46,293 bases of DNA from positions 305,947 through 352,239 of the forward strand of contig NZ_KB235944.1 of assembly GCF_000332315.1 (NCBI RefSeq), read 5' to 3'. This document shows, piece by piece, positions 1-18,072 of the stretch. A program made the position numbers and the translations under genes. Source of the DNA: Prochlorothrix hollandica PCC 9006 = CALU 1027 (GTDB lineage Bacteria > Cyanobacteriota > Cyanobacteriia > Prochlorotrichales > Prochlorotrichaceae). Below the pieces are notes generated by a model. It saw only the letters and a program-made list of their open reading frames with translations, was not told the origin of the DNA and made no database searches. The number at the start of each line of letters is the position of its first letter. The first letter of the stretch is position 1.

Positions 1-411
1 TTGGAGACCTTTTGGGACTATGGACTGCGCTTTCGTATTGAACAGTTGTTTCTCGACAGCAAGTCTGGAGTCTTTGATTGGGAAGGGTCTAGAGTCCGCA
101 ACGTTGAGGCTCTCGAACGCCTCTATCTAGTGGTCGCCATTTCCCTGCTGTTCGCGACTATCACGGGCATGGCGGTGCAACGGGCGGACTTGCGTCGTCA
201 AGTCGATACCCATTGGCGGCGGGGCTTGAGCTACCTCAAAATAGGTCTCCGTTGGTTAACGGGGGTGGTTCACAAAGGCCGTGATTTTCTGCCCTTCGAT
301 GCTCTACTCTACCGAGACCCCGAACCTTGTTTTGCTTCTGCTAAGGCCAAGCAAAAACACCTCGAACAATTCTCGATTGAGCGAGTGCAGACCTTTTACT
401 GTTCTGCTTGA
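1..411 (+). CDS. IS4-family transposase, C-terminal fragment (cut by window edge)
   Basis: The frame is open from the first base, so the 5' part lies outside the window. The first residues show the IS4-family Y(2)R(3)E(6)K signature exactly: Y10... in YGLRFRIEQLFLDSK, with Tyr, Arg, Glu and Lys at the right spacing. The Glu is the last acidic residue of the DDE catalytic triad. The following KSG-F-WE-SR and the hydrophobic helix with ALERLYLVVAISLLFA are typical of the C-terminal end of these transposases. The protein would cut and join the ends of its own element. The TTG at base 1 is not a credible start. The element's right end appears to lie at about 441-477, just after the stop codon. 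Whether the full gene is intact cannot be seen. Confidence 0.85.
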   Translation: METFWDYGLRFRIEQLFLDSKSGVFDWEGSRVRNVEALERLYLVVAISLLFATITGMAVQRADLRRQVDTHWRRGLSYLKIGLRWLTGVVHKGRDFLPFDALLYRDPEPCFASAKAKQKHLEQFSIERVQTFYCSA

Positions 412-440
412 GAAGCCTCTAACCAAGGCTGTCACTATCT

Positions 441-477
441 TTCACAGATGTGTCAGTCAGTCAGGTCAGTCAGTCAG
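441..477. mobile_element. Probable right end of the IS4-type element, with duplicated GTCAGTCAGTCAG
   Basis: About 30 bp after the transposase stop the sequence reads TTCACAGATGTGTCAGTCAG, then a second GTCAGTCAGTCAG. The inner part resembles the terminal repeat of the 141-bp element at 16942-17082 (TTGTGTCAGTCAAGCAG). The left terminus lies outside the window, so the exact IS boundary (464 or 477) is not decided. Confidence 0.45.
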
Positions 478-4748: not shown

Positions 4749-5077
4749 CGTAGGTTGGGTAGAGGAACGAAACCCAACAAGGGACCTATCAATAGGCAGA
4801 TGTGGGGGCGATCGCCCAATGGCTCGTTGGGTTTCGCCCGGTCGGTTGGGGCGGTGTGCCTGGGGTCTTGGGCAGCTCAACCCAACCTACGGTTGCTACG
4901 ATTGCGAGATCGTAGGTTGGGTAGAGGAACGAAACCCAACAAGGGACCTATCAATAGGCAGATGTGGGGGCGATCGCCCAATGGCTCGTTGGGTTTCGCC
5001 CGATCGGTTGGGGCGGTGTGCCTGGGGTCTTGGGCAGATCAACCCAACCTATAATGGCTCAACCCAACCTACGGTTG
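4749..5077. repeat. Tandem duplication (162-bp period) of a TAGGTTGGGT palindromic repeat
   Basis: Two nearly identical copies start at 4749 and 4911 (CGTAGGTTGGGTAGAGGAAC), each ending in CAACCCAACCT. A third partial end, CTCAACCCAACCTACGG, lies at about 5056-5072. Each copy is an imperfect palindrome: TAGGTTGGGT pairs with ACCCAACCTA, and AACCCAAC with GTTGGGTT. A shorter relative sits at 16969-17043. The spacer just before it (4725-4750) is a run of GATCGTCGATCG units. The copies differ at about three positions, so the duplication is recent. Confidence 0.8.
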
Positions 5078-9118: not shown

Positions 9119-12100
9119 TTAGCCGATCGGGACCCCAGCCCCCAGATCGATCGTCCCCAAGGTAAATTCAACCGCTGGCACCTCCAGCAGCACATTATCC
9201 CCCAGGGACAGGGATCCCGTCCCCAGAGACGCTTTGATGTGAACCCGCTTAATGCGGCCATTTTGCATTTCAATCGTGGCCTTAGACAGGCGCAGGCTGA
9301 AATTAATGGGGAACTCAAAGGAACCCAGGCTTTGCTCTTTGAATTGGGGTTCGATCGTCGAAGTTTGGGAAATGGCCACCTCATGATCCGCCAAGGGGAT
9401 CGCCAGCATAAAGCTGGAACTATGGAGAGCGCGATCGCGGTAGTCGATGATTTCCTTAGCATTACCCCAAATCAGGCCCAAAATATCCCGACCCACCGAG
9501 ATATTGTCCAGGGCTTCATTCATCTTCTCCACCATCCCCACCATGGCCGCATCAAAGAACATGGCCGGCAGACCCGCCGCCTTTTCCTCTAGCTGACGTT
9601 TGATTTGGGCCTTGATTTGGGCTTTGATCAGGCTATCTTCTGTTTCCTCTTCCGTTTCCTCTGCTGTCTCGGCTGCTGTCTCGGCTGCTGTCTCGGCTGC
9701 TGCCGCAGTTTTTGCCTCAGTTTCTGCCCCGGCTGCTGCTGCGGACTCTGCACCATCAGCCTCCGCCTCTTCCCCATCTCCTAACCCCAAGCGTTCCTTG
9801 AGGTTAAAGAAATCAGCCAGGGTGGGCTTGAGGATAGGCGGGGTGTCGGTATCGAGGGAGGTTGAGACTGTGGCATCAGTCAGGGGGGCGATCGTGGCCT
9901 CTCCTGTCTCTGGATCAACTCCCATCCCTGCCTCTGCCGTGATGGAGTTAGCTTCCGAGGTCTCTGCCCCCAGATCTGGGCTACGCTTACCGAGCACCGC
10001 ACTGGCTCCCATCACAGCCGTTACAGCGGCAGCAGTGGCCGCGACGGTGGTTGCAGCGGTGTTAAACAGGGATTGATCCCCGATATCCATACTATAGAGG
10101 GTTAGGTCATCCGTATCGACCCGATTCAAGCTAAATTCCAATGCACCCAAATCCATGGTGGCTACAACGGAGAAATCGAGATTGAAGGTATTGTTTTGCA
10201 GACTTTGTTGAATCGCGTTCTGGAGGCTGGGAGTCAGGAGGTTGGCACCATTGCCACCACTGGAGGCGGCTTGGCCCCCGGCTTGGCCTGCATTGGCTCC
10301 GGCAGCGTTGGCACTGGCGGCTTGACTGGCGGCTTGACTGGCGGCTTGACCCCCTGCTTGCCCCCCTGAGAGGAGACCTTGGACGCTGGAGGCGATGCTC
10401 TGACCGGCGCTGGTCAACCCTTGGCCCAGGCTGGAAACGCCTTGGCTAATGGCACTGGTAGCACTGCCCACCCCACCACTGACTGCACTACTGGCGGCAC
10501 CGGCGGCGCTGCTGACTCCGGCCCCGATCGCCGCAACACCCCCGGCCACACTGGCTCCGACGGCGGCGGCAGCACCGGTGGCCACTGCTGCGGCAACAGC
10601 ACCCAGGGCAGCGACGGCTACCCCAACGGCGATCGCGGTGGTGGCGGCAGGACTCAAGCCTTCAGCGGTTTCCGATCCCAGGGCAGAACTCCCCCCGGCT
10701 GAGGCGACCCGATCGGCGAACCCATCACTACTGGATCCGCCACTGGATCCGTCACTAGATCCACCACTAGATCCCGTGCCACTGGAGCCAGTCCCACCCC
10801 CCGCAGCAGCACTGGTTCCGGTACCGCCATTGGTTTCGGCCCCGATCGCGCCAGCTTCAGAACCGGGGGCACTGGCGATCGCTGTCCCTGCCCCCGCTGA
10901 GCCAGCCCCGGCCCCCCCACTGCTTGCACCTGAGGCTCCGGTAGCTCCACCAGAACCAGAACCAGATCCGCTAGCACCAGAACCCGCACCAGCACCAGCA
11001 CCAGCACCAGATCCGCTAGCACCAGAAGCCCCGGCACTACTAACCGCTGAGGCTGCACCGGAAGTCCCAGCCCCCGCTGAGCCAGCCCCAGACCCCCCAC
11101 TGCTTGCACCTGAGGCTCCGGTAGCTGCACCAGAACCCGCACCAGCACCAGAACCCGCACCAGAACCAGCGCTAGCGCCAGCACTAGAACCAGAACCGGC
11201 ACCAGAACCAGATCCGCTAGCACCAGAAGCCCCGGCACTGCTAACCGCTGAGGCTGCACCGGAAGTCCCTGCCCCCGCCGAGCCAGCCCCTGAAGTCCCT
11301 GCACTGGCCGCAGTCCCAGCCCCCGCCGAACCAGCCCCAGATCCTTCTGCACTGCTCCTGATATCTGTGGTGCCGCTACTGTTGAGGGTTAGCCCCTGGG
11401 AACCCGTCACTGTGTTGTTGAGGTTGAGGTTCGCCCCTGCTAGGGTAACGGACTGGGTATTAACGGTAGCCGCGTCATTAAGGGTTAAATTACCCGTTGT
11501 TGTGATATTGGCATCCAGGTTCGTGGTACCTGGAGCATCGATGGTTAAGCTGGCAACGGTTACGGCTCCATTAATATCTGTGGTGCCGCTGCTGTTGAGG
11601 GTTAAAGCTTGGTTGCCGTTTATGGTGCTACCCAGTGTCAGGTTCCCCCCGTTAGCATTAAGAACTACCTGGCCAGTAATGGCATCTAAGGTAACGGCAT
11701 CATTGAGGGTCAGATTGCCGGTCGTGGTGAGGTTAGCCCCCACTTGCGTGCTACCAGCCCCATCGGTGGTTAAGCTGCCTAAGCTCACTGTTGCATTAAT
11801 ATCTGTAACCCCAGAACTATTGAGGGTTAGCCCCTGGGAACCCGTCACTGTGCTGTTGAGGTTGAGATTCGCCCCTGCTAGGGTAACGGACTGGGTATTA
11901 ACGGTAGCCGCGTCATTAAGGGTTAAATTACCCGTTGTTGTGATGTTGGCATCCAGGTTCGTGGTACCTGGAGCATCGGTGGTTAAGCTGGCAACGGTGA
12001 CTGCTCCATTAATATCTGTGGTGCCGCTGCTGTTGAGGGTTAAAGCTTGGTTGCCGTTTATGGTGCTACCCAGTGTCAGGTTCCCCCCGTTAGCATTAAG

Positions 12101-15100
12101 AACTACCTGGCCAGTAATGGCATCTAAGGTAACGGCATCATTGAGGGTCAGATTGCCGGTCGTGGTGAGGTTAGCCCCCACTTGCGTGCTACCAGCCCCA
12201 TCGGTGGTTAAGCTGCCTAAGCTCACTGTTGCATTAATATCTGTAACCCCAGAACTATTGAGGGTTAGCCCCTGGGAACCCGTCACTGTGTTGTTGAGGT
12301 TGAGATTCGCCCCTGCTAGGGTAACGGACTGGGTATTAACGGTAGCCGCGTCATTAAGGGTTAAATTACCCGTTGTTGTGATGTTGGCATCCAGGTTGGT
12401 GGTACCTGGCTCATCGGTGGTTAAGCTGGCAACGGTTGTGACTCCATTGATAGTCGTTACACCCGCACTATTGAGGGTCAGGCCAAAGGCACCATCAACC
12501 GTATTGTTGAGAGTCAAACTGCCGCCGCCCAAGGTAATATCCCCCAGCAAGGTCAGTGCCCCATTAAAGGTTTGCGCCCCCGTCGTGGTCAGATTGACCG
12601 CAAGGCTTGTAGCCCCGCCCACGGTCAGGCTAGCCGCTGTCAGGCTCCCGTTGGCTTGCACCGTTAACCCGTCCAGCAGTACCGAACCACTGGCATTCAG
12701 GCTACCATTGGCCAAAATCAAGCTTCCACCCGTCAGACTGACCAAACTCACAGGATCTCCGGCTAAATCAAAGGTAACCGTGTTATTCCCCGGAATCACC
12801 ACATTGGCAACATTGGCCAGTTCAGGAACCACCCCCCGCGCCGCCAAGTTAGCAGTCGGTGCCCAATTATTGGGGTCAAACCACTGCCCCGTGGTGTCCC
12901 CAACCCAAGTGGCCGAGTCCAGGGGCGTAATATCAGCCGTGACGGAACCCGACAAAACATAGTTAAAAGCTCGGCTACCGTTCAGGGCCAGGGAAACCGC
13001 TTGGTTATCCCCAACATTCTTACTGCCAAAGCTGCCCACCACCTCAATATTGGCTCGATCGCCCGCCGCAATTTGATCCGTAAAGGGCGTGTCCAGGGTA
13101 AAACTGGCGGCAACGGAACCATCATAGGCTTTGGCATTGGCGCTGAGGCCCGTGGCGGTCAGCGGCTTCGGGTCAATGGTGAGGGTGGCCCCGGTCGAGG
13201 CGCTATTGAGGGTGTAGGCTTGGCTCAGGGTTGGGGACAGAATCGGGCGGATGGCGCTGTAGGTTCCTGCATCCACAAAGGACGTAATCGGCTGCCCGTT
13301 CCACTCAAAGGTATAGTTAACCGTGCTGCCATCCTGCACATTCAGGGTCGTCCCATCCACATTGAGGCGCAGTTGACCGAAAAGGGCAGCCAAATTCACC
13401 AGAGTGCCGTCATAAACCGTCGCCGCAGCATTGGACAACGCCCCCGACACCAAAAAATCATAGGTGGTATCCACAGGAGTGGTGGTGCCCCCAGAGGATT
13501 GGACCACATCTTGAATCACTGAATTAATGGTGGCAGCGGGGGCAGCGGTGTAATACCAGGTGAAACCCGCTTCGCTACCAGGGGCAATATCCCCTAGGCT
13601 GTTGTACAGCGCATAGGAACCGTCGCCCGTCACTTGAATGGTGGCGCTGGCCGGGTTCACTCTGGTGGCATTGGTAAAACTACAGCAACCAGCATGGGTA
13701 CCTCTGACGGAGGAATCCGTAGAATAAAAGAGAACCGATGCCCCACTGGACGCGCCGCTCACCTCATCAACCCGCAGTACATTGGCAGCATCCCCCACCT
13801 GCGTAATCGCCGTAAATCCACTACCGGTGAGGTTCCCCAGCGTCTTCGTGGGACCATCGGTCTGACCAACCCAATCATCCTGGGTTCCGGTCCAGAGGCC
13901 CACATTTTGTAAGGTCGTCGTCGTGGCCCGAATGGAGGTTGTTGCCGCTAGAAAAGAGTCACCCGATCCCAGGCTGTACTGGTTCGTGATGAGCGCAGGA
14001 CTGCCGCCAATGGTAATCGGGACAACGGACTCAATCACGCCGGAACCCTTGGGACCGCCCCCTGGCCCTGAACCCACCCCAGGGCGATACCCCCCAATTT
14101 CCAGGTAGCCACCGGGCTGGACGGTATAGGTTCCCCCCTGCGTACTCGCAAAGTTCGTTTCGATGTTGCCATTCCAACGGGATCCCCTAGTACCGGTGCC
14201 AACCTCAAGGTTGAGGGGATAACTGGAAAAGGTCAGTTTGTAATAGCCATTACGACCCGTCGTGACATTATCGAAATAGTTGGGCTGGGTTAGTAACCCT
14301 TGGGGATTGACAGCAGCAGTATTAGCAGCAGCGGGAGCATTTTGGGCACCACCGTTGATCGTACCAAAGGAGAGGTAGCCGTTGTTGAGGACCAATTGAT
14401 TAACTGTGCCGCTGGATCCCTTCTGCCAAGTAAATGCCGTAGTAGCAGTGGTTTGGTTCCCTGTGGGTAAGGGAATCTGGATACTAACTCCATCGGCCAC
14501 GGTGTAGGAGGAGCCGCTACCGTCGGTTGTGCCTTGACCAAAGGCGGCGCGCAGAGCACCAGTTCCTGTGATGGTGAGATCGGCATTAATCTGGAGATTA
14601 CGAGTTGCCAGTAGGGTTAACTGGTTCGCAGACCAACTGAGGGCACCATTCACCGTAATATCGCCATTGCCGCCACTGCCCGTGGTTTGAATCACCAGGG
14701 ATCCCGTATTTTTGAGGAAGGTGGAAATGTGATTGGCGTAAATGGTGTTGGCATTGGTGGGGCTACCGCTGATGGGTGGACCGGAACCGGCAGCGATCGT
14801 AATATCATTGGGATCAAACACCAGCGTCCCCGCCCCCCCCTGGGGAGCCGCCAGATCGACGCGGTTATACCAGTCACTGACCAAATTAAGGGTCTCCTTG
14901 CCCGACAGATCAATCAATCCGCCATTTCCACCCAAATCTCCGCCCCTGGCGCTAGCCTCACCCCAAAACGCCAACTCATCCTCCGCAATAATCCGGGCCT
15001 CACCCCCATCCCCCAAAATCAGCGCATCCACATTCACCGTTCCCGCCAAGGCAATATCCCCGGCCCCCGTTGGCAACGGCTGAGTTGAACCCCTCAAAGA

Positions 15101-15955
15101 CACCGTACCATCGGCATTGACCACCAAAGCCGTGGCATGATGGAGATTCCCCCCCGTCAGCAGTTGGGGCAAATCCAGGGGCGTTAAGGTTTCCGGCAGC
15201 AGATTCAGACCTAGGGCTGAGCCATCTGTGGCGAGGGGTTCGATTTCCAAGCCTAGGACCATGCCCGCTTGCTCTAGGCGCACCACCCCCGCATCCGGGA
15301 CCGCCTTCAGATTCACAAAACCACCGGGGGCCGTCAGCGATCCCGTGTTGACCACCGTCCCCCCCACCAGGGTCAGGCTCTGGCCCGCTGGGACTTCTAA
15401 GGCTCCTTCGTTGACGATCGTCCCCTGGCCCACCTGGGTAAAGGCAAAGCGGTTGGGACTGCCCACCAGGCTCCCATAGTCGTTGCTCCCCACCCCATTA
15501 AACCAACCGTTCTCGAAGCCGATGGCCGTGGCCGTGGTGGCCGTAAAGGATCCCCCCAAATCCAAGCGCCCCTGGGGACCAAACACCACCCCCGCCGGAT
15601 TCATCAAATATAAGTTGGCATTGCTGTTACTCACCTGGAGCAAGCCATTGATAATGGAAACCTCTCCCCCCGTCACCCGTCCCAAGATATTGGCTAAGTC
15701 CGGGGAACCGATAAAGTTAGCCACTTGATCGCTGTTTAAACCAAACTGTTCAAAGCTATGGAACAGGTTTTGGCCCGATCGACTGCCTCCCGTAATCTCA
15801 AAGCCATTACCGCTGACACTAACCTGGGTTTGGGTTCCATCCCCTGCCGGTAGAATGGACTGAGCCTGCGCCAGGGTTGTGAAGGTCAGTCCTAGACCTG
15901 TCGCATACAGAAGGGGCAGAAAAATGCGATGGGGCGTAGGAGAGTGATAATCCAT
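9119..15955 (-). CDS. Filamentous-haemagglutinin-type secreted protein (TpsA-like), giant repeat protein
   Basis: About 2278 residues from the ATG at 15955, chosen because AAGGAA lies 12 bases upstream and a signal peptide starts there (hydrophobic 11-28, ending TTLAQA). A longer frame to 16114 would add 53 residues, including KAALQ repeats. The two-partner-secretion (FHA N-terminal) domain follows, with SNANLYLMNPAGVVFGP at about 111-127. Beta-helix-like repeats continue, with a YDG/MBG-type segment (LSANAKAYDGSVAASF) near 930-1010. Then come 2.5 copies of a 146-residue repeat (about 1168-1531), an Ala/Gly/Ser-only tract (about 1535-1755), a small-residue hydrophobic stretch (about 1770-1830), an Ala/Glu-rich helix (about 2060-2120) and a unique C-terminal 150 residues. 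Such proteins are exported through a TpsB outer-membrane pore as adhesins; no TpsB gene is in the window. Confidence 0.85.
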   Translation of the reverse strand: MDYHSPTPHRIFLPLLYATGLGLTFTTLAQAQSILPAGDGTQTQVSVSGNGFEITGGSRSGQNLFHSFEQFGLNSDQVANFIGSPDLANILGRVTGGEVSIINGLLQVSNSNANLYLMNPAGVVFGPQGRLDLGGSFTATTATAIGFENGWFNGVGSNDYGSLVGSPNRFAFTQVGQGTIVNEGALEVPAGQSLTLVGGTVVNTGSLTAPGGFVNLKAVPDAGVVRLEQAGMVLGLEIEPLATDGSALGLNLLPETLTPLDLPQLLTGGNLHHATALVVNADGTVSLRGSTQPLPTGAGDIALAGTVNVDALILGDGGEARIIAEDELAFWGEASARGGDLGGNGGLIDLSGKETLNLVSDWYNRVDLAAPQGGAGTLVFDPNDITIAAGSGPPISGSPTNANTIYANHISTFLKNTGSLVIQTTGSGGNGDITVNGALSWSANQLTLLATRNLQINADLTITGTGALRAAFGQGTTDGSGSSYTVADGVSIQIPLPTGNQTTATTAFTWQKGSSGTVNQLVLNNGYLSFGTINGGAQNAPAAANTAAVNPQGLLTQPNYFDNVTTGRNGYYKLTFSSYPLNLEVGTGTRGSRWNGNIETNFASTQGGTYTVQPGGYLEIGGYRPGVGSGPGGGPKGSGVIESVVPITIGGSPALITNQYSLGSGDSFLAATTSIRATTTTLQNVGLWTGTQDDWVGQTDGPTKTLGNLTGSGFTAITQVGDAANVLRVDEVSGASSGASVLFYSTDSSVRGTHAGCCSFTNATRVNPASATIQVTGDGSYALYNSLGDIAPGSEAGFTWYYTAAPAATINSVIQDVVQSSGGTTTPVDTTYDFLVSGALSNAAATVYDGTLVNLAALFGQLRLNVDGTTLNVQDGSTVNYTFEWNGQPITSFVDAGTYSAIRPILSPTLSQAYTLNSASTGATLTIDPKPLTATGLSANAKAYDGSVAASFTLDTPFTDQIAAGDRANIEVVGSFGSKNVGDNQAVSLALNGSRAFNYVLSGSVTADITPLDSATWVGDTTGQWFDPNNWAPTANLAARGVVPELANVANVVIPGNNTVTFDLAGDPVSLVSLTGGSLILANGSLNASGSVLLDGLTVQANGSLTAASLTVGGATSLAVNLTTTGAQTFNGALTLLGDITLGGGSLTLNNTVDGAFGLTLNSAGVTTINGVTTVASLTTDEPGTTNLDANITTTGNLTLNDAATVNTQSVTLAGANLNLNNTVTGSQGLTLNSSGVTDINATVSLGSLTTDGAGSTQVGANLTTTGNLTLNDAVTLDAITGQVVLNANGGNLTLGSTINGNQALTLNSSGTTDINGAVTVASLTTDAPGTTNLDANITTTGNLTLNDAATVNTQSVTLAGANLNLNSTVTGSQGLTLNSSGVTDINATVSLGSLTTDGAGSTQVGANLTTTGNLTLNDAVTLDAITGQVVLNANGGNLTLGSTINGNQALTLNSSGTTDINGAVTVASLTIDAPGTTNLDANITTTGNLTLNDAATVNTQSVTLAGANLNLNNTVTGSQGLTLNSSGTTDIRSSAEGSGAGSAGAGTAASAGTSGAGSAGAGTSGAASAVSSAGASGASGSGSGAGSGSSAGASAGSGAGSGAGAGSGAATGASGASSGGSGAGSAGAGTSGAASAVSSAGASGASGSGAGAGAGAGSGASGSGSGSGGATGASGASSGGAGAGSAGAGTAIASAPGSEAGAIGAETNGGTGTSAAAGGGTGSSGTGSSGGSSDGSSGGSSSDGFADRVASAGGSSALGSETAEGLSPAATTAIAVGVAVAALGAVAAAVATGAAAAVGASVAGGVAAIGAGVSSAAGAASSAVSGGVGSATSAISQGVSSLGQGLTSAGQSIASSVQGLLSGGQAGGQAASQAASQAASANAAGANAGQAGGQAASSGGNGANLLTPSLQNAIQQSLQNNTFNLDFSVVATMDLGALEFSLNRVDTDDLTLYSMDIGDQSLFNTAATTVAATAAAVTAVMGASAVLGKRSPDLGAETSEANSITAEAGMGVDPETGEATIAPLTDATVSTSLDTDTPPILKPTLADFFNLKERLGLGDGEEAEADGAESAAAAGAETEAKTAAAAETAAETAAETAEETEEETEDSLIKAQIKAQIKRQLEEKAAGLPAMFFDAAMVGMVEKMNEALDNISVGRDILGLIWGNAKEIIDYRDRALHSSSFMLAIPLADHEVAISQTSTIEPQFKEQSLGSFEFPINFSLRLSKATIEMQNGRIKRVHIKASLGTGSLSLGDNVLLEVPAVEFTLGTIDLGAGVPIG
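10690..11345 (-). repeat. Ala/Gly/Ser low-complexity coding tract
   Basis: About 220 consecutive codons use almost only Ala, Gly, Ser and a few Thr, in short motifs such as GAGSGAGS and AGASGASGSG. An inner block of about 180-190 bp (ending at about 11106 and 11293) is repeated with small changes. The tract lies between the 146-residue repeats and a hydrophobic glycine-alanine stretch, like a flexible stalk. Confidence 0.8.
11361..12460 (-). repeat. 438-bp direct tandem repeat within the FHA-type gene (about 2.5 copies)
   Basis: The plus-strand string ATATCTGT followed by the GGGTTAGCCCCTGGGAACC block begins at 11361, 11799 and 12237, so the period is exactly 438 bp (146 codons). The first two copies are nearly identical and the third is partial, grading into diverged repeats by about 12460. 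Each unit contains shorter internal repeats (TTTGNLTLNDA, LTLNSSG), as in a beta-helix built by duplication. Confidence 0.9.
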
Positions 15956-15998
15956 GGGAAATTTCCTTAAAGCTGTTGATAAAGTAGTGCTTGCTGCC

Positions 15999-16058
15999 TG
16001 TAGAGCAGCCTTCTGTAGAGCAGCCTTCTGTAGAGCAGCCTTCTGTAGAGCAGCCTTA
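15999..16058. repeat. 15-bp tandem array TGTAGAGCAGCCTTC, four exact units
   Basis: Four identical 15-bp units lie 44-103 bp upstream of the chosen FHA start. If translation began at 16114 they would encode KAALQ pentapeptides ahead of the signal peptide; with the start at 15955 they belong to the leader. The ribosome site and signal peptide favour the second reading. Confidence 0.85.
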
Positions 16059-16114
16059 AGGGCCGTTGGCAACGGAAAACACCCCCCCGACTCCCTGAAG
16101 CAGGCGGACAGCAT

Positions 16115-16466: not shown

Positions 16467-16941
16467 GTTCTCGTCTGAAACCTATAGAATCTTGCACCGA
16501 TACCGATGATGGAATCTGCAAACTCTGCCCAAGCCCCTGCTCCCACGTCTGGGTTCTAGCAAGCAAGGTCTAGGCTGGAAGGAATCTGTGGCAACGTCGT
16601 CAAACGTTCTCAAACGTTCTCAAACGTTGCTGGCCTGAAATGATGTACCCCTCATGCTTTTAGTGTACCCGGTTAGGGGAGGCTGAGCCTCCGTATTTCT
16701 AGCAGGCTTGCAGTCTGTTGCATAGCAATGAAGGTAACGACCCAGCCCTGGGATCTTCGATACAGCCGACCCGATCGCCGCTTGCTTTGTACCCCAAAAA
16801 AGCCCCAAAACTAATCCCCGGTTGCTGCTGGGCTGAAAGCCGCAATCTGTAAATCTTGGCCCAGAAACCGGGAATCTCAGAAATCGGGAATCTCAACCCC
16901 CAGGGATACAACCAGAACTCTGGGCTTGGAGAGGCTAATAC

Positions 16942-17082
16942 CTGGTTGACTGACACAAGATGGTCGCTGTAGGTTGGGTTGAGGTACGAAACCCAACAGC
17001 CACAATGGTTGTGTTGGGTTTCGCAAGGCTCTACCCAACCTACGCAAACATAAGCCTTTCAGAAGTTGTGTCAGTCAAGCAG
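16942..17082. mobile_element. 141-bp MITE with 17-bp inverted ends and 9-bp target duplication
   Basis: The left end CTGGTTGACTGACACAA and the right end TTGTGTCAGTCAAGCAG are inverted repeats with one mismatch. The element is flanked on both sides by the perfect direct repeat GGCTAATAC (16933-16941 and 17083-17091). Inside is a TAGGTTGGGT...ACCCAACCTA palindrome (16969-17043) related to the repeat at 4749. The termini resemble the sequence just after the IS4-family gene at the left window edge. Nine-base duplications are known for several IS4-family groups. Confidence 0.85.
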
Positions 17083-17096
17083 GGCTAATACACTGT

Positions 17097-17190
17097 TAAG
17101 TAGGTCAGGATAATTAATCCGAGGTAGAGGTGACGACAGAGTAAGGGTTTCAGCCACTTCTAACCCTGTTTATTTTACCGAGCCTACTTA
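17097..17190 (+). mobile_element. 94-bp MITE-like element, family 2, full copy
   Basis: It runs from TAAGTAGGTCAGGATAATTA to AGCCTACTTA, with inverted ends bounded by TA. It is the best preserved of the family (other copies at 568-660 and 2161-2210). It sits 5 bp beyond the 9-bp duplication of the preceding element and 10 bp before the psb29 stop codon. Confidence 0.8.
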
Positions 17191-17200
17191 TCGAGCAGGT

Positions 17201-17986
17201 TTAGGAATCCGATGGGTCAGACTCTGCGGGGGAAGGATCGGCAGTGGGTTCAGGGGTTTCAGCAGCGGCTTGGGCCTTGGTCTCTGCCTCCGCCTGGGCT
17301 GCGGCCTTCGCGGCCCGTTCCTCCGCCCGCTGTTCCCGCTTTTTGCGCTCCGCTTCCGTCATTTCCGCCAGCAGCAACTGGGCCTGCCCCAGCTTCTCCA
17401 AATTGCTTTGGTATAGCTCCACATCTTTCTTGAGCTTTTCGAGGGGTAACACCAGGGACACACTAACCTTGTCCCACAGTTCCCCCTGTTTGTCCGTGTC
17501 CTTAATCCAATCGGGGGCTACCTTCTCCACCAGGCTAAACAGGCCAATGGCAAAGAGACGGCTGTATTTAAATTTGGCTCGATCGGACAACTGGGCCAAC
17601 ACCGATCGCAGGCTCCCCCCGATGGATCCATCCGCCGACAAATTGAACAGGGCCAGTAAGTCATCGGGGGACAGCCCGTCCGTGGCGGCGAGGATCGCCT
17701 CTGCATCCCGGCGGTAGGTCTGGACATCGGATCCCACGGCCCCGCAGAGGGCGCTAAAAATGGAGTCCCGATCGGCCTCCGGACGGTAACCTTCCATGAA
17801 GCGATCGAAGGTAGTCACCACCCCCAGGGCGTAGATGGAGTCATAGGTAAAGGTGGCATTGACCCCCAGCAGATGCATCTCGACCATCAACTCTTCCAAC
17901 ACTCGACGGTAAATCGAGTTGATGGGGCGGGTATGGGCAGCGTAAAAGGCCCGCTTGGTGTCAGACAGCGTTGGTGGGTTATTCAC
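17201..17986 (-). CDS. psb29: Photosystem II biogenesis protein Psb29 / thylakoid formation protein Thf1
   Basis: The N-terminus VNNPPTLSDTKRAFYAAHTR and the following PINSIYRRVLEELMVEMHLL are hallmark sequences of Psb29/Thf1. This protein supports photosystem II assembly and repair and works with FtsH proteases at the thylakoid. The GTG at 17986 gives the usual N-terminus (NNPPTLSDTKRAF); a longer frame starting with TTG at 18055 is unlikely. The protein has 261 aa and is helical, ending in a charged coiled coil (KKREQRAEERAAKAAAQ) and an acidic Pro/Ser tail. It is the last gene of the fraC-fraD-Rieske cluster, 86 bp after the oxygenase. Confidence 0.93.
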   Translation of the reverse strand: MNNPPTLSDTKRAFYAAHTRPINSIYRRVLEELMVEMHLLGVNATFTYDSIYALGVVTTFDRFMEGYRPEADRDSIFSALCGAVGSDVQTYRRDAEAILAATDGLSPDDLLALFNLSADGSIGGSLRSVLAQLSDRAKFKYSRLFAIGLFSLVEKVAPDWIKDTDKQGELWDKVSVSLVLPLEKLKKDVELYQSNLEKLGQAQLLLAEMTEAERKKREQRAEERAAKAAAQAEAETKAQAAAETPEPTADPSPAESDPSDS

Positions 17987-18072
17987 GAGTATCAAGCTGA
18001 GAGAAATATTAACTTCTATTAAACAGGACGACGGGGGCTTGACACAAGGAATCAACCCCGAAAAGACTGCGG

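Follow-up and report, generated by a model that had tools for sequence, protein, structure and literature searches.

The question raised by this locus is how a 141-bp palindromic element came to lie between perfect 9-bp direct repeats in Prochlorothrix hollandica PCC 9006, and whether an insertion sequence (IS) of the IS4 family resident in the same genome supplied the enzyme. The window, i.e. the whole stretch of DNA analyzed, comprised 46,293 nucleotides of contig NZ_KB235944.1. The element occupies positions 16942-17082 (plus strand) and is bounded by two unstranded 9-bp copies of the target duplication GGCTAATAC, at 16933-16941 and 17083-17091. Its ends, CTGGTTGACTGACACAA (left terminal inverted repeat, 16942-16958, plus strand) and CTGCTTGACTGACACAA, are inverted over 17 bp with 16 of 17 positions identical. 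Both the perfect direct repeat and the 17-bp ends with one mismatch had been described in the initial annotation and were confirmed. In the core (16969-17043, plus strand), two GTAG-tagged REP palindromes, GTAG-GTTGGGTT..AACCCAAC and the inverse of this sequence, face each other head to head, with inverted arms at 16969-16983/17029-17043 and 16987-16998/17012-17023. The right arm (17044-17082, plus strand), in which CTTTCA is followed by the terminal repeat TTGTGTCAGTCAAGCAG at 17066-17082, is conserved in other cyanobacteria. Single-strand folding yielded one long, strong hairpin (-46.1 kcal/mol, z -10.1 against 200 shuffles). The element is short, has terminal inverted repeats and, at 141 bp, is too short for a transposase gene, as expected of a MITE. 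The insertion lies between open reading frames, since both long neighbors, minus-strand frames of 2,331 aa at 9119-16114 and of 284 aa at 17201-18055, stay clear of it. An Rfam search of four loci returned a single match, which was sub-threshold and outside the MITE. A separate repeat, TTAAGTAGG..CAGGGTTAGAAGTGGCTGAAACCCTTACTC.., was observed as an inverted pair at 570-660 beside the IS remnant and at approximately 17086-17190 directly beside the MITE.

The host genome (5.65 Mb, 13 contigs) was searched with the focal element, yielding at least 86 matches at E<=0.001. These included at least 20 near-full-length copies, plus fragments, 20 being a lower bound because 40 of 232 candidates were scored. 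The pattern TTGACTGACACAA, allowing one mismatch, occurred 169 times in the genome versus 6 times for the reversed control pattern. Among 25 distinct two-ended copies, enlarged ones included, the 9-bp duplication was perfect in 10, matched at 8/9 or better in 15 and fell below 8/9 in the other 10. Three of 28 rows had been removed from this test (L192, the same element as L027, and L020 and L030, which lack a convincing second end); with all 28 rows restored, the duplication was perfect in 11 and reached 8/9 or better in 16. Mean flank identity was 0.83 at length 9, compared with 0.23-0.34 at lengths 6-8 and 10-13 and a null of 0.28 at length 9; the sole excess at the other lengths was L004, with an 8-bp duplication. 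The genome search and the duplication length of 9 bp, both of which the initial annotation had set as checks, thus came out as it had anticipated. The draft assembly contains gaps of 100 N at many IS copies, which could favor reading the flanking repeats as chance or assembly artefacts. This explanation is refuted by the flank test, in which 8/9 or better was reached by 15 of 25 real flank pairs and by 0 of 600 mismatched left-right pairs; the structure was also found independently in other genomes, and we regard such an origin as having practically no chance of being correct.

Inspection of 20 regions with the TTGACTGACACAA pattern revealed further small element types beside the focal family (family 1). 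Family 2 is approximately 132 bp long and has no REP core (L183, L189, L194), with duplications that are perfect in L189 and 7/9 in L183 and L194. Family 3 consists of units of approximately 83 bp (L184, L185, L186, L195). These have their first 28 nt in common with the IS left end, and perfect 9-bp duplications surround the enlarged L185 and L186. Related empty sites were found for three family 1 copies, the joined flanks of which, with the 9-bp sequence counted once, match other small elements through the junction; that of L007 lies in family 3 copies (86% over 65 bp in L186), and those of L009 and L027 lie in family 2 copies. Many dispersed copies, a duplication of constant length and ends common with an autonomous element are all present in the host genome. 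The sequences of family 1 thus show conserved 17-18-bp ends, 9-bp duplications, many copies and related empty sites.

The autonomous candidate is the resident IS, of which the window retains the right part. Positions 1-411 (plus strand) encode the C-terminal 136 aa of a 398-aa IS4-family transposase, the remainder falling in a 100-N assembly gap left of the window. The 3' noncoding part and right end (..TGTGTCAGTCAGTCAG) follow at 412-464 (plus strand), the right end reading TTTCACAGATGTGTCAGTCAGTCAG with its last base at 464, and then a probable duplication, GTCAGTCAG, at 465-473. This copy allows no check of left end or duplication because its left flank lies in the gap. The whole 398-aa protein was read in L050 and L051. 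The resident IS is 1,334 bp long, starts with CTGACTGACTGACACAAG, ends with TGTGTCAGTCAGTCAG and has terminal repeats CTGACTGACTGACACA; the 25 genome matches to its transposase form one family at 84-100% identity. Copies elsewhere in the genome, which the initial annotation had named as a test, carry the same end sequence, and eight of the nine with both ends have perfect 9-bp duplications, the exception being L053 with a 1/9 match. The flank GTCAGTCAG is common to the right side of the window copy (465-473) and of L053 and equals the last bases of an IS end, which would fit insertion of the IS into the end of another element.

Members of the IS4 family carry a YREK signature and terminal repeats with a 9- to 12-bp duplication. 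Such repeats and duplications were found for the resident IS, and its transposase contains the DDE triad and most of the YREK signature; D109, D172, E276, Y269 and R272 were invariant in 10 proteins and K283 was present in 8 of 10. The protein passed the cut-off of the Pfam DDE_Tnp_1 model (42.3 bits, cut-off 23) and missed that of the NCBIfam IS4 model NF033591 (131.9 bits versus 152), and a search with the transposase profile for relatives of solved structure found no chain at E<=1. The IS10- and IS50-like groups of the IS4 family have a DDE transposase, ends starting with CTG and a 9-bp duplication, and the resident IS resembles them in all three respects.

Comparison with other cyanobacteria revealed a distribution much wider than this genome. 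The focal element found a match in 25 of 59 genomes, many to the core only; among the matches listed, both arms were covered in G050, G003, G031, G027, G011, G002, G041 and G006. At 27 loci in other genomes, 11 perfect duplications of 9 or 10 bp, five of 8/9 and seven weaker or absent ones were observed, and four loci were one-ended. Most aligned copies elsewhere fell within 139-143 bp, and all within 132-145 bp, with conserved arms and the REP pair at a constant place. Of 291 genomes of the class, 101 contained the 17-mer CTGATTGACTGACAAAA, compared with two occurrences for the reversed control, and 108 contained relatives of the transposase. Twenty-one of 29 loci were scanned for ends, eight being too short; CTG ends with a perfect duplication were found in 10 of the 21 (9 bp in eight, 10 bp in two) and not in the rest. 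Among the cyanobacterial relatives with ends read, protein identity to the resident enzyme is only 35-57%, and their ends fall into two sets, CTGACTGCCTGACA-like for proteins 53-57% identical and CTG[AG]TTGACTGACAAAA-like for those 35-42% identical, with duplications of 9 or 10 bp. Ends of the second clade (e.g. CTGATTGGCTGACAAAA in L123) are the same as those of most MITEs, and an architecture of 141-143 bp with CTGATTGACTGACAAAA ends, like this clade, spans many cyanobacterial genera. A transposase relative was not found at E<=1e-20 in G003, which carries the MITE, and the MITE carrier G050 is not among the 108 genomes with such a relative. In 20 genomes, most of them selected as carriers of the first IS clade, MITE-sized elements with its exact ends (CTGACTGCCTGACA) occurred once each in two; there is no comparable MITE family with exact first-clade ends in those genomes.

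The resident IS is the only relative of the transposase found in the genome and is therefore the best helper candidate. The initial annotation had noted a likeness between MITE and IS ends, and this was borne out at 15/17 for each focal end against the IS left end and 14/17 against its right end. The second clade, not found in the host genome, fits equally well (15/17); since the focal ends fit the resident IS no better, the element probably began with another helper. At position 5 the focal ends agree with the second clade (T), and at position 15 with the resident IS (C). Over 18 nt, the left ends of L005 and of the IS do not differ, and the resident-type left end CTGACTGACTGACA is present in L005 and L021. 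The 11 of 20 copies with C15 at both ends showed less interior divergence than the nine others (one-sided p 0.015), and the eight with A at an end were more diverged, i.e. older, than the other 12 (p 0.002), both tests counting copies related by descent as independent. In other genomes, position 15 was A in 163 of 164 ends of 82 elements, the search pattern having allowed A or C. The match to the resident IS is incomplete, as positions 4-5 of most young copies read GT/CT and those of the IS read AC; subterminal likeness is also weak, with TGAA[AG] (the TGAAAG block, considered as a candidate shared site for transposase binding) in 8 of 26 IS ends versus 4 in the control. The pattern of C15 in younger copies, as in the resident IS, and A15 in older ones suggests a change of helper. 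For this one genome, we read the MITE as probably inherited with second-clade ends, then taken up and being adapted by the resident enzyme.

A competing explanation holds that a lost second-clade IS4 enzyme (ends CTG[AG]TTGACTGACAAAA) spread the MITE, that the resident IS never did, and that the change at position 15 is drift in one copy lineage. It would account for the second-clade ends on MITEs of other genomes, for the nine exact CTGATTGACTGACAAAA copies that persist in the host genome, and for the 15/17 match of the focal ends to that clade. It sits poorly with copies 97-99% identical with perfect duplications in a genome where the second clade was not found, and with the C15 of the resident IS in young copies and its CTGACTGACTGACA left end in L005 and L021. 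We consider this explanation unlikely, though it is the likeliest of the alternatives weighed here.

The favored reading, held with good though not full confidence, is that the element is a non-autonomous IS4-type cut-and-paste MITE whose recent copies were served by the resident 398-aa enzyme, with the REP core as passenger, and that it descends with a helper change from a cyanobacterium-wide MITE. A DDE transposase would bind both CTG..GACTGACA ends, and the 141-bp element would be excised and inserted at cuts staggered by 9 bp. For recent copies here the enzyme would be the resident one, which agrees with them in its own ends and in duplication length; the IS4 transposase as mover, proposed in the initial annotation, is thus supported by shared ends and duplication length as a probable means of mobilization. 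The REP pair would be carried along and let the whole element fold into its long hairpin. The presumed ancestor would have had the usual ends CTGATTGACTGACAAAA, matching an IS4 clade not found here, and the A to C change at end position 15, marking younger copies, looks like adaptation to a new helper.

The core raises a further possibility regarding mobilization. It has the form of a GTAG-type REP dimer, with the GTAG tag, then a short stem-loop, and head-to-head pairing, and it is integral to the element and not a local accident. Its palindrome belongs to a separate repeat family, as had been proposed, which is shared with a solo REP pair without MITE ends at 4750-4890 and with a second, tandem solo unit at 4912-5072 (both plus strand). 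With such a core, and with five Y1-transposase matches in the genome, the unit could be regarded as a REP/BIME moved by a REP-associated tyrosine transposase (RAYT), the IS4-like arms being incidental. However, the 9-bp duplications and constant ends are of the DDE type, families 2 and 3 share the ends but lack this core, and the GTAGGTTGGGT REP was absent within approximately 1.5 kb on each side of all five Y1 genes. RAYT mobilization was dropped on this last result and is judged very improbable.

Enlarged family 1 copies add to the picture of the core. Perfect 9-bp duplications flank L181 (279 bp), L196 (371 bp) and L192 (596 bp), and L200 (242 bp) has a duplication of 8/9. Added REP units were observed in the core of L181 (505-783), L196 (84-454), L192 (432-1027, the L027 element) and L025. 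In L181 and L025, a 143-bp alignment of the extra DNA with the solo REP unit at 4750 showed 92-95% identity, and therefore the core exchanges material with resident REPs.

An end-pair pattern scan of named genomes returned 91 stretches, of which 80 were kept as loci containing 82 elements. The GTAGGTTGGGT core was present in 27 of the 82, from 15 genomes (counted, as below, by record title) including Nodosilinea, Tildeniella, Halomicronema, Spirulina and Kaiparowitsia; a different core, CCCTCACCC..GGGTGAGGGC, occurred in 45, from eight genomes, with 32 of the 45 from one MAG; neither motif was found in 10. In control windows, the two motif tests scored 8/1511 and 16/1511, respectively. Flanks matched over 8 to 11 bp with at most one mismatch in 56 of the 82 elements, 43 of these at 9 bp. 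L207, L226, L213 and others were observed to be MITEs of approximately 155 bp with the same ends and the CCCTCACCC/GGGTGAGGGC palindromic core. The CCCTCTCCC..GGTGAGGGC palindrome of the intrastrand-triplex (TMECO) repeats of E. coli resembles the core of this second MITE family, but in the section of PMC4666352 concerned those repeats are described as intergenic and not as MITE cores.

Two unrelated palindromic repeats are therefore carried by the same ends. These two cores (27 and 45 of 82), the enlarged copies with REP material like that at 4750 and the end changes following the resident IS lead to a tentative broader proposal, which we hold to be possible but less than even in probability. 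The IS4-type ends may be a chassis that repeatedly takes up or exchanges REP-like palindromes, so that a DDE transposase, and not only RAYTs, would disperse cyanobacterial REPs; a palindromic core may be favored as bringing both ends together.

The pairing of a MITE with a resident IS is well established, according to the relevant part of a review (PMC10969869). Nezha, as cited in a passage of PMC3049150, is a cyanobacterial MITE proposed to be moved by ISNpu3-like elements. It is likewise paired with a resident IS via shared ends, and the comparison being by description, the two could be identical. Literature searches for the element, its motif and an IS4/REP composite found no report of the family among the papers listed, Nezha being compared by description alone. 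For Anabaena sp. 90, an excerpt of PMC3542288 lists ISAsp10, a member of the IS10 subgroup. GTAG REPs of cyanobacteria, and dimers lying within other palindromes, are treated in sections of PMC3733652. The GTAG-15 REP dimers of Anabaena variabilis described there resemble the focal case in lying inside a second, long palindromic element; however, the consensus of that outer palindrome (TATAGGA..) bears no relation to the CTGATTGACTGACAAAA ends, and those sections of PMC3733652 mention neither a transposase nor a duplication for it.

The mechanism is ordinary in kind; what is unusual is the wide distribution of one composite architecture, the core exchange and the hint of a switch between helpers. 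Non-autonomous elements tend to be local and to last only briefly, whereas here one architecture of near-fixed length spans many cyanobacterial genera. The core of the MITE is a repeat that belongs to another mobile system, and the ends of the MITE change visibly where the resident transposase differs, so that two processes become directly testable: the switching of a MITE between helpers and the dispersal of REPs by a DDE enzyme.

Minor observations were also made at individual loci. Four records of the end-pair scan bear non-cyanobacterial labels. Two of them, L221 and L278, have no CTG ends and are probably chance matches; L256 and L266 are MITE-sized, have complete CTG..GACTGACAAAA ends and come from records labelled as Chloroflexi and proteobacterium MAGs, the explanation being transfer or mis-binning. 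In the host genome, L192 holds an unrelated repeat of approximately 300 bp bounded by GTAACTATTCAGG../..CCCCTGAATAATTAC, which is also present in L186. In L200 and L030, one arm bears a repeat starting CAGCAGTCCTAAA.GGGTCGTGTGGTGTGCCCCCGG, a sign that the genome may hold a further mobile repeat.
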